Source of the DNA: Armatimonadota bacterium
Lineage (GTDB): Bacteria; Armatimonadota; Fimbriimonadia; Fimbriimonadales; Fimbriimonadaceae
Assembly: GCA_022563855.1 (NCBI GenBank)
Contig: JADFMN010000003.1
Location: 186,001 to 250,000, forward strand
Length of the DNA stretch: 64,000 nucleotides
Direction: 5' to 3'
Shown: piece by piece, positions 22,636 through 24,890 of the stretch
Numbering within the stretch: the first letter of the stretch is position 1
Layout: the number at the start of each line of letters is the position of its first letter
Notes under the pieces: model-generated
The model's input: the letters and a program-made list of their open reading frames with translations, nothing else
What the model was told of the DNA's origin: nothing
The model's database searches: none
Position numbers and translations under genes: made by a program

Positions 22636-23589
22636 TTGGCTAGGGAAGAGGGAGCCACCGCGCTCCTCGAGCAAGAGTTGCCGGAAGTTGTTGAGCCCGC
22701 GAAGCCAAAGCGCGTCATGGTGCTTGGCGCTGACGGCATGCTCGGGTCCGATGTCGTCGCGGAGTTTCGGCAGTTGGGATGGGACGTCGTCGCGCCGCTC
22801 CGAGACGAAGTTGATATCACGAAGGCTGAAGATCTGGAGCACGTTCGCGTGCGCGACTTCGGCAACCTCGACTGGATCGTGAACTGCGCTGCGTATACGA
22901 ACGTGGACAAGGCCGAGGACGAGTTCTACGAAGCCAGTGCCGCAAACGGGATCGCACCCGGCATCCTTGCCTACATCTGCGCCCGGAACGGCTGGAGATT
23001 TCTCCACATCAGCACTGACTTTGTCTTCGACGGAGAGTCGGACCAGCCGTATCAAGAGGGGTACTTTCCAAAGCCGCTCGGCAAGTACGGCATGACGAAG
23101 TTGATGGGAGAGAGGAACGCCGCGAAAGAGAATCCCGACGCCATCATCTGCCGAACAGCGTGGCTGTACGGACCGACCGGAAGCTCTTTTCCGCGAACGA
23201 TCATCAAAGCCTGGTTGGACGGCAAAGAGCTGAGAGTCGTAGACGATCAGATCGGTTCTCCGACCTACACCGGCGAGATGGCTAGAGTGATGGCCGACAT
23301 GATTCAGGCGGACCTTGCAGGTGGCCTGTATCACGCTGCCGGGCCGGACGCGATGACGTGGTATCACCTCGCATTGCTTGCGCTGGAGACGTATCGCGAC
23401 AGCGTGCTGGGGGAAAGCAGAGAGATCGCAGTCGAAGCGATCGGTACAGAGGAATGGCCGACGTCGGCTCCGCGCCCCAAGTACAGCGTTCTTTCATCCG
23501 GGAAACTGTTTGCACTCGGAGTTAGTCCTATGCGCTCAACGCAGGCTTGCCTCGTTGACTTTTGCAGGCGGCTGCCGAGAATCCTCTAG
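22636..23589 (+). CDS. rfbD: dTDP-4-dehydrorhamnose reductase
   Basis: Last enzyme of dTDP-L-rhamnose synthesis, for surface polysaccharide. NAD(P)-binding VLGADGMLGSDV near residue 30, VNCAAYTNVDKAED, STDFVFDG and the catalytic YGMTK pair of the short-chain dehydrogenase fold. The TTG start is preceded by GGAGGGGCGGAG. The N-terminus has about 25 extra residues before the Rossmann motif compared with E. coli RfbD. No rfbA, rfbB or rfbC is nearby, so the pathway is split in this genome. Confidence 0.9.
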   Translation: MAREEGATALLEQELPEVVEPAKPKRVMVLGADGMLGSDVVAEFRQLGWDVVAPLRDEVDITKAEDLEHVRVRDFGNLDWIVNCAAYTNVDKAEDEFYEASAANGIAPGILAYICARNGWRFLHISTDFVFDGESDQPYQEGYFPKPLGKYGMTKLMGERNAAKENPDAIICRTAWLYGPTGSSFPRTIIKAWLDGKELRVVDDQIGSPTYTGEMARVMADMIQADLAGGLYHAAGPDAMTWYHLALLALETYRDSVLGESREIAVEAIGTEEWPTSAPRPKYSVLSSGKLFALGVSPMRSTQACLVDFCRRLPRIL

Positions 23590-24203
23590 TACCGCATGCT
23601 GTACATGAACCCGAGGGATTTGCCGTTGACAAGGTACACGCTGGCTGATCCGGACTGGAGTTTGTACGTCGCGAACGGGTGGCTGTTGTGCCCGTCGAAC
23701 TGCAGCCCCACGGTGATCGGACCGGTGGGCGTGACCTTGACTCCGTACAGTTCGTGAAAGTGCCCTTCAAAACCCCTGACTGAAAGGCCGACGTACCCTT
23801 CCACATTTAGGTCAGCAAACCCGGTCGACTTTTCTAAGGTCGCGAACGTAACGGTTTTTCCGCTGCCGACGCCCTGGACGCCGTGCCCGATTCGGATGGC
23901 GGGAGAGACGAGCGTTTCGCCAATCAGCATCCAATTGGCGACGAGTCGTATCGTGCCCTGGCGCCAGAAATAGACGCCGCCAAGCTGCAATTTCGTAACC
24001 GGGTTGAACCAGACGCTCGTCCTGCCATCAGTGCCTGTTCCCGGGGTCCACAGATTCGTCACCAATACCGTCGGTTGTCTTTCTGAAGCCGCACCGGCTC
24101 CAAAGGCTCCACCGCCTCACAGAGGTCATCCACCTGAGGTCTGAGCGACGGCGACCGACCCTACGACGAGCATTCCAGAAACAGCGAGGAGTCGTCTAAA
24201 CAT
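23586..24203 (-). pseudogene. Secreted-protein gene interrupted by two in-frame TGA codons
   Basis: From an ATG at 24201-24203 the reverse strand encodes a clear signal peptide (MFRRLLAVSGMLVVGSVAVA, then QTSGG) and then TGA (24126-24128), Pro, Leu and a second TGA (24117-24119). The very same frame continues open for another 177 codons to 23586 (GGGAFGAGAASERQ, then VTNLWTPGTGTDGRTSVWF to the end). The signal peptide and body therefore belong together, about 206 codons. Nonsense decay, an assembly error or recoding of TGA are the options. If translated at all, the body alone could start at the GTG before TNLW. Family unknown; the body is beta-rich with no Cys. Confidence 0.6.
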
Positions 24204-24260
24204 ATTCGTTGCCCGTATGGCACTGCGCAGATGCGCGCAGTTGACCGTTTTTCAGACGAA

Positions 24261-24296
24261 GAAAACCTGGCAGACGGTTCTGTCTGCCAGGTTTTC
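24261..24296 (-). terminator. Terminator of the triple-YHS gene
   Basis: A 15-bp perfect stem, GAAAACCTGGCAGAC with loop GGTTCT, 21 bases after the stop at 24318. A and T tracts are part of the stem, so it can work in both directions; on the minus strand the arm ends in GGTTTTCTTCGTCT. Confidence 0.8.
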
Positions 24297-24317
24297 GTCT
24301 AACGTTCGGCGCTTCTG

Positions 24318-24890
24318 TTACTTAGCCGCTATGATGAGCGCTTTTGGAGCGACGCCGTTCTTGATGGCGTACTTGGCTGGATCTTTGACCATCGTCGGCG
24401 CGCACAGTACACAGCACATGTAGTACCGCGTGTCGCCGTGATCGACGTAGCCTCCTAAAGCCTTCGAGTAGCTTGCGATCTTCGTGCCCATGACCGCGCA
24501 CTTCATGCTTTCTTTAGCCGGCACCTTAGAGATCTTCTTCGGATCCTTCAGGAACGACTTGAGGTTGGCTTCTGATTCGAAGTAGTATCGCGTGCCCATG
24601 TAGTCGGTATGGGCCTTGGCCTTCTTCGCCTCGATTCGCTTTCTAGAGATCGGGTCGAAGAGGGAGTAGGCGATGAGCCTCTTTTTCTCAATGGCGTCCT
24701 TGATGTACTTCTTCGGATCGGCGGCGAACTTATCTTCGCATCCTGGGCAACAAGACCCGTATAACTTTCCGGCGTACTCCACCGACTTGTTGCCTTCTCT
24801 CACTGGACCGCCCATGACTGGACAAACGAATTCGTCTTTGATCGTAGCGGTGCCCATGACGACCGCCGCGGCTATTGTTGCAGTTAACAT
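24318..24890 (-). CDS. Secreted protein with three YHS-like metal-binding domains
   Basis: A 190-residue protein with a short signal-like start (MLTATIAAAVVMGTATI). Three repeats of a YHS/TRASH-like unit follow. Unit 1: CPVMGGPV...GKLYGSCCPGCEDKFAADPKKY. Unit 2 (residues 75-120) keeps the shape (DYMGTRYYFESEANLKSFLKDPKK) but has no cysteines. Unit 3: CAVMGTKI...YYMCCVLCAPTMVKDPAKYA. Single YHS domains bind heavy metals in copper or mercury handling proteins; a triple tandem with a dead middle copy suggests a metal sensor, scavenger or structural role. Exact metal unknown. Confidence 0.75.
   Translation of the reverse strand: MLTATIAAAVVMGTATIKDEFVCPVMGGPVREGNKSVEYAGKLYGSCCPGCEDKFAADPKKYIKDAIEKKRLIAYSLFDPISRKRIEAKKAKAHTDYMGTRYYFESEANLKSFLKDPKKISKVPAKESMKCAVMGTKIASYSKALGGYVDHGDTRYYMCCVLCAPTMVKDPAKYAIKNGVAPKALIIAAK

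Follow-up and report, generated by a model that had tools for sequence, protein, structure and literature searches.

Our analysis of a 64,000-nucleotide stretch of Armatimonadota DNA (the window) identifies a gene whose two in-frame UGA codons are, judging from comparison with its relatives, very probably both selenocysteine (Sec) codons, with the gene itself intact, a reading to which we assign a probability of about 0.95. Read from the sequence, its frame runs MFRRLLAVSGMLVVGSVAVAQTSGG-TGA-Pro-Leu-TGA-GGGAFGAG..., and 176 sense codons separate the second TGA from the terminal TAG. The original prediction, made without naming a strand, had described a signal peptide and a body that share one frame and are split by TGA-Pro-Leu-TGA at 24117-24128, and this exact span is confirmed here on the minus strand (Table 1). 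Where that prediction had ranked simple gene decay first and had kept Sec as an outside possibility, the Cys-containing homologues and sel genes described below favour Sec and reverse the ranking, placing it ahead of decay. In the mechanism we propose, SelB together with tRNA-Sec (UCA) would decode both in-frame UGA codons as Sec, directed by a SECIS element with a GUG loop 22 nt downstream of the second and 31 nt downstream of the first UGA. The exported product would then form a 12-stranded beta-barrel inserted in the outer membrane, leaving the Sec-x-x-Sec pair on a short N-terminal tail ahead of strand 1.

Table 1. Coordinates of the predicted selenoprotein gene, its parts and its upstream neighbour (positions in the window)
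Feature	Position	Strand	Remarks
Predicted selenoprotein gene	23586..24203	minus	ATG 24203-24201, stop TAG 23588-23586; 205 residues with both UGA read as Sec; same layout in homologues
Predicted signal peptide MFRRLLAVSGMLVVGSVAVA	24144..24203	minus	cleavage near AVA/QTSGG, judged by eye; N-termini of homologues comparable (starts set by a simple script)
First in-frame UGA	24126..24128	minus	probable Sec; Cys in CPLU and CPLC relatives, among others
Second in-frame UGA	24117..24119	minus	probable Sec; Cys in CPLC, CPIC, CPVC, CAGC and UAGC relatives
Putative SECIS hairpin	24082..24104	minus	10-bp stem (RNAfold), apical loop GUG 24094-24092; evidence family-wide
Predicted 12-stranded outer-membrane beta-barrel body	23592..24068	minus	model residues 26-184; AlphaFold2 and fold matches; Pfam OMP_b-brl in 2/26 relatives
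YHS/TRASH-domain gene	24318..24890	minus	upstream, 114 bp off; Pfam; possible functional neighbour

Two codon positions shared by UGA and Cys

Searching with the body minus its N-terminus against 61 genomes (the gene's own and 60 of the same order) at E 0.001 returned matches in 30 of them, which read in frame as CPL-stop, stop-PL-stop, stop-PV-stop or stop-PM-stop and, in a second branch, as T-stop-TG-stop-PGEG (the UTGU branch). A profile built from 26 members and run on 291 Armatimonadota genomes matched 96, with UGA-bearing copies in 62 of the 291; the family is spread across the phylum Armatimonadota. From 155 profile hits whose loci were fetched, 151 carried the motif and gave 98 distinct members; the four hits without the motif were excluded from the count, among them a divergent relative (L128) with Gly-Pro-Leu-Ser at the motif site. 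From the earlier comparison of homologues, a false member (L059, GPRU) was removed by eye. Scanning named genomes with a single pattern, taken from a CPLU-type body, gave 21 loci, all titled Armatimonadota or a subgroup thereof except for one 'bacterium' and one archaeon. The member in the latter (L062, titled 'Methanoregulaceae archaeon') is identical to the one in an Armatimonadota genome (L019), and the record is probably mislabelled or a mixed MAG. Neither the window body nor one UTGU-type member had a plasmid match.

Across the 98 distinct members the codon pair is Sec-Sec in 53, Cys-Sec in 30, Sec-Cys in three and Cys-Cys in 12, with no other codon at either place. The original prediction had pointed out that the two TGA codons are spaced as in a CxxC motif and had proposed a search for Cys-containing homologues; these exist, with Cys at exactly both TGA positions, and the spacing is meaningful. 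In a single sequence, two in-frame stops look like decay, and a pseudogene in which both TGA arose as chance nonsense mutations is one rival reading. That 86 of the 98 relatives share at least one of the two TGA codons, in the same place and frame, and that none has TAA or TAG at these internal positions, speaks against it. The same holds for the sequence past the second UGA, which is under purifying selection: dN/dS is 0.02-0.24 in 18 unsaturated UGA-bearing pairs of equal length and more than 60% identity, a further 17 such pairs being saturated at synonymous sites. Assembly or sequencing error, which would turn the TGA codons into artefacts, seems to us negligible, given that many other assemblies, and two further loci of the same genome, have TGA at both positions, and that CP021423.1, a single-contig genome sequence of 2,985,550 bases, has it at the second.

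An open reading frame starting at TTG 24065 does exist, and one might picture two products, a signal-peptide-bearing peptide that ends at the first UGA and a separately started body. We consider this most improbable: a barrel lacking its signal peptide would stay unexported, sense-coded relatives have Cys at both positions within one continuous protein, and both motif positions are among just five invariant columns of the 26-row alignment. Another alternative keeps the protein whole and has UGA read as a residue other than Sec, be it Cys via a suppressor tRNA, Gly or Trp. Cys is indeed what aligns elsewhere, and Cys-inserting read-through would yield the same alignment; Sec is, however, usually replaced by Cys and not by Gly or Trp. 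Moreover, the terminal stops of the 98 members are mixed (TGA in 40, TAG in 35, TAA in 23), which means that UGA also serves as an ordinary stop in these genomes and is difficult to reconcile with its general reassignment to another amino acid.

If the Sec reading is right, the family adds to the known selenoproteins one whose members would be truncated or called pseudogenes by gene calling that treats UGA as a stop. It would also offer one small protein in four naturally occurring versions, Sec-Sec, Cys-Sec, Sec-Cys and Cys-Cys, so that any advantage of Sec over Cys becomes directly testable.

A hairpin downstream of the codon pair

The original prediction had also noted a stem, GGAGCCG/CGGCTTC with a GTG loop, 15 bases past the second TGA, and it is present as described. 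The loop starts 22 nt past the second UGA and 31 nt past the first, and both distances agree with the 16-37 nt that the bacterial SECIS model allows according to a 2026 review (PMC13188914). On its own, the hairpin of the window is not significant, with a z of -1.26 for the 91-nt stretch and 29 of 200 shuffles folding equally well, and a proponent of gene decay may cite this. That it stands above chance follows from comparison with the relatives, in which TGA recurs together with a stem in the same register.

General bSECIS criteria are passed by 52/53 Sec-Sec, 30/30 Cys-Sec and 3/3 Sec-Cys members but also by 8/12 Cys-Cys members. This loose rule separated UGA from Cys-Cys copies poorly, and we therefore turned to the stem at a fixed register and to synonymous-codon controls, in which all 98 members, and 200 sets with randomly drawn synonymous codons, were scored for the stem at the register common to the family. 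Mean stem length was 6.57 bp in Sec-Sec members (1.98 randomised), 6.23 bp in Cys-Sec members (2.03) and 6.67 bp in the three Sec-Cys members (1.87), values which none of the 200 sets reached in any of these classes. In the 12 Cys-Cys members it was 1.33 bp versus 1.23, and 83 of the 200 random sets reached it. Put differently, the stem at that register reaches 5 bp or more in 70/86 UGA-bearing members versus 1/12 Cys-Cys members. The fixed-register hairpin goes with the UGA copies, which again argues against UGA being read as something other than Sec.

Covariation points in the same direction. In an alignment of 28 UGA-bearing members, hand-chosen and mostly with the common register, the eight-pair stem is paired in 92.0% of cells, two-sided cells number 64 versus 25.6 after shuffling, and the covariation score is 0.749 versus 0.222, a value that 0 of 500 shuffles reached. 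The score falls to 0.15-0.30 once the partner is slid by 1-3 columns, and RNAalifold recovers seven of the eight stem pairs unaided. The apical loop of the family hairpin reads GUN. Such covariation is not what the decay of a gene would leave behind; together with the distances in the window and the synonymous-codon control it supports a bacterial SECIS element.

In 16 of the 86 UGA-bearing members the hairpin at the common register is shorter than 5 bp (three of the 16 have 4 bp), and most of these have a hairpin elsewhere that meets the general bSECIS rule. In L045, a paralogue from the gene's own genome, the hairpin is no more than weak (-3.5 kcal/mol). The position of the hairpin is unchanged in the three Sec-Cys members, at 31 nt from their sole UGA, which supports the idea that in Sec-Sec members one SECIS may serve both codons. 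To our minds, the distance at which a SECIS can still lie from its codon could also be gauged from these three natural cases.

Sec machinery and the distribution of UGA copies

Since the original prediction had proposed a look for selA, selB and selC, it is relevant that selA (513.5 bits), selB (345 bits, cut-off 242), selD and a tRNA-Sec bearing the anticodon TCA (UCA), the last a 74-bit hit confirmed by ARAGORN, all occur in the gene's own genome. Its selD (L163 1501-2403, contig C4) has an in-frame UGA of its own (...KCAG-Sec-ASK..., GUASK) and is a known selenoprotein type. All four parts of the Sec machinery sought, selA, selB, selD and tRNA-Sec (UCA), are therefore found in one genome with the UGA-bearing gene.

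Beyond that genome, selA is present in 59 of the 62 genomes with a UGA copy as opposed to 3 of the 11 with Cys copies only (Fisher p 1.8e-6, relatedness ignored). These 73 come from the 96 genomes matched by the profile, 23 having been left out for a truncated or weak match that does not show the motif. Two of the 62 (G161, G173) were judged by the TGA column of the profile search and the other 60 from fetched loci; likewise, two of the 11 (G002, G172) were judged from the profile search instead of from fetched loci. The selA test itself took in 142 of 149 matching genomes, the seven left out being weak and none of them among the 73, and 138 genomes lay above the curated selA cut-off. A tRNA-Sec search at E 0.001 was positive in every one of the 61 genomes and 14 controls, and was not used for co-occurrence because ordinary tRNAs evidently match it.

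Three UGA genomes lack selA (G054, G073, G074). In two of them (G073, G074) selB is above the cut-off, with a selB match on the family gene's own contig and, by eye, a TlpA/TRASH-type gene between the two; the third (G054), at 73% completeness, shows a partial selB match. In none of the eight Cys-only genomes that lack selA does selB exceed the cut-off. Exceptions to the pattern are three genomes that possess selA but have Cys copies only (G002, G169 and G172; that of G169 was observed in L112), and two others (G167, G168) that hold a Cys-Cys paralogue alongside a UGA copy. As side observations, two related genomes (L165, L166) have a UTGU barrel, a TlpA/TRASH-type protein and selB on the same strand within a few kilobases, and two genomes without selA contain a divergent, near full-length SelB-like match (G137:C8:22893-24554, 89 bits; G139:C1:1847626-1849287, 86 bits), which is perhaps a remnant or another elongation factor.

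Genome counts are blind to relatedness, and so a tree was built from the body minus the motif columns. On it the Cys-Cys state calls for at least three changes, counted against the Cys-Sec and Sec-Cys rows with the 53 Sec-Sec rows left out, where three changes could also be one gain plus two losses. The CPLC pair (G004, G033) is nested next to a CPLU relative.

Taken with the evidence above, that Cys takes the place of UGA in genomes without selA is hard to square with chance nonsense mutations, and we regard the pseudogene reading as extremely unlikely. Insertion of a residue other than Sec appears very unlikely too, given the selA, selB, selD and tRNA-Sec genes in the genome and the co-occurrence of selA with UGA copies.

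A predicted outer-membrane barrel, its neighbours and known systems

AlphaFold2, run with 23 sequences (the window protein plus related loci), returned a model with 12 strands, a mean pLDDT of 85.2 and a pTM of 0.80, in which residues 1-8, holding most of the motif, are poorly defined. Foldseek placed FapF (E 3.3e-5), KdgM and NanC in its top ranks, and VIA-align gave KdgM a Z of 17.3 (rmsd 2.5 over 155 residues), followed by FapF (16.8), COG4313 (16.7) and PcoB (10.7). The C-terminal residue is Phe in 73/98 members and Phe, Trp or Tyr in 81/98; outer-membrane barrels often end in Phe. With a signal peptide (judged by eye), an antiparallel barrel in the model and an aromatic end, we confidently predict that the body is a 12-stranded outer-membrane beta-barrel.

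Pfam and NCBIfam assign no family to the window protein, and a sequence search of it against solved structures had no match at E 1. When 26 relatives were run against Pfam at E 0.1, two matched OMP_b-brl (best E 9.7e-6), one DUF2490 and one, weakly, a LytR family, with nothing else found. The LytR_cpsA_psr match (E 0.034, 0.027) is below the cut-off and was rejected as chance. As for a thioredoxin fold around the motif, there is no Pfam match, and the model is a barrel with the motif on its tail; the Sec pair would hence sit on a predicted outer-membrane barrel rather than on a thioredoxin fold.

Clues to function come from the neighbourhood, for which one of the 98 members was lost, two members of the same locus sharing one name. 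The window gene is preceded by a YHS/TRASH gene, and YHS/TRASH-type proteins lie near some other members; in L111, L112 and L116, YHS/TRASH-like segments are in frame directly ahead of the motif (CAGC or UPGU). The YHS gene and the putative selenoprotein gene of the window are separated by a very strong inverted repeat (24252-24302, -33 kcal/mol, z -7.8), possibly a terminator or attenuator, for which a terminator scan has no entry; with so strong a hairpin between them, co-transcription of the two genes is unproven. Among members flanked by 500 nt or more, a TlpA-type protein follows on the same strand within 600 nt in 23/47 of the UTGU branch versus 3/46 of the others. In the one such partner run against Pfam, a thioredoxin domain is accompanied by a YHS match of 27.9 bits, under the cut-off of 30.3. 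An ArsR-family gene is upstream in 6/49 UTGU-branch members and a MerR-family gene in 4/48 members outside that branch. Two paralogues in the gene's own genome fit in here: one on contig C1 is preceded by a MerR-type gene, and one on contig C19, a UPLU barrel with an unusually weak SECIS, is the last of a gene run (L167 8611-10406) that also comprises a regulator judged by eye to be ArsR-like and a MerT-MerP fusion.

With neighbours that include YHS/TRASH, TlpA-type, ArsR, MerR and MerT-MerP proteins, we lean, tentatively, towards the idea that the protein helps to defend the outer membrane against soft metals or redox stress, the UxxU being on a periplasmic tail, although we put this clearly below even odds. 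At the periplasmic mouth of the barrel, the pair might bind soft metals or metalloids, or take part in dithiol-like redox chemistry, with YHS/TRASH and TlpA-type proteins as partners and control of the ArsR/MerR type. The fullest version of this idea, which we regard as speculative and, as a whole, rather unlikely, sees the Sec-x-x-Sec tail as a selenol trap or gate for soft metals (e.g. mercury, copper, arsenic) at the periplasmic mouth of a porin-like channel, working together with metalloregulators and with partners of the YHS/TRASH and TlpA types, and a single SECIS serving both Sec codons 9 nt apart. Alternatively, the pair may not bind metal at all but perform thiol/selenol redox work, such as peroxide or disulfide reduction at the outer membrane, and be recharged by the TlpA-like neighbour. 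CxxU and UxxU are redox-related motifs in known families (PMC13188914), and the frequency of a TlpA-type thioredoxin behind UTGU-branch members fits well with it. The same TlpA-type partner, however, also has the weak YHS match, the ArsR, MerR and MerT-MerP genes near some members point to metals, and 86/98 bodies have no further Cys. A purely redox role is a serious contender, though we would put it at somewhat short of even odds.

The family apparently has not been described until now. It is absent from the 119 prokaryotic selenoprotein families and subfamilies in Table 1 of the 2026 review (PMC13188914), and a literature search on Sec or selenoproteins in this phylum or order turned up no title on Armatimonadota selenoproteins; subscription papers are mostly beyond its coverage, and the family may have been reported elsewhere. 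The review's table does name two other outer-membrane barrels with Sec, an MtrB/PioB-type protein and a TonB receptor (PMC13188914). The former, the GSU2204 family CXXCH-containing selenoprotein (NF041027), likewise combines Sec with an outer-membrane barrel according to its entry there (PMC13188914). It differs from the family here, which has 12 predicted strands, carries UxxU right after the signal peptide and has no CXXCH, and none of 26 relatives (0/26) matches any NCBIfam model, NF041027 included, at E 0.1. TonB receptors have 22 strands and a plug domain. The FCYXU type (NF049945), also an outer-membrane barrel, contains CxxU (PMC13188914; PMC12013277). Our family differs from it in having 12 predicted strands and no NCBIfam match.

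Proteins of the NF041115, MerT and MbdU types, for their part, are soluble or inner-membrane, and the family here has no NCBIfam match to them. What it shares with these, namely the metal-binding UxxU selenoprotein (putative mercuric reductase, NF041115), the MerT-type C/SxxU selenoprotein and MbdU, is that in the review's table they are Sec proteins tied by name to soft metals (PMC13188914), and that one member here has an ArsR-like gene and a MerT-MerP fusion upstream. In fold, the best matches of our model are the 12-stranded porins of the KdgM/NanC type, the COG4313 channels and FapF. Sequence identity to them is about 10%, membership in the KdgM type is seen in the fold but not by sequence profile, and none of the three is known to have a Sec/Cys pair. 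Finally, PcoB/CopB, the copper-resistance outer-membrane protein, is a small barrel encoded in metal-resistance operons with a His/Met-rich soluble part. PcoB is among the fold matches of our model, at a Z well under that of KdgM, PcoB/CopB is not among the three Pfam families matched by the 26 relatives, and the N-terminus of the present family carries UxxU.
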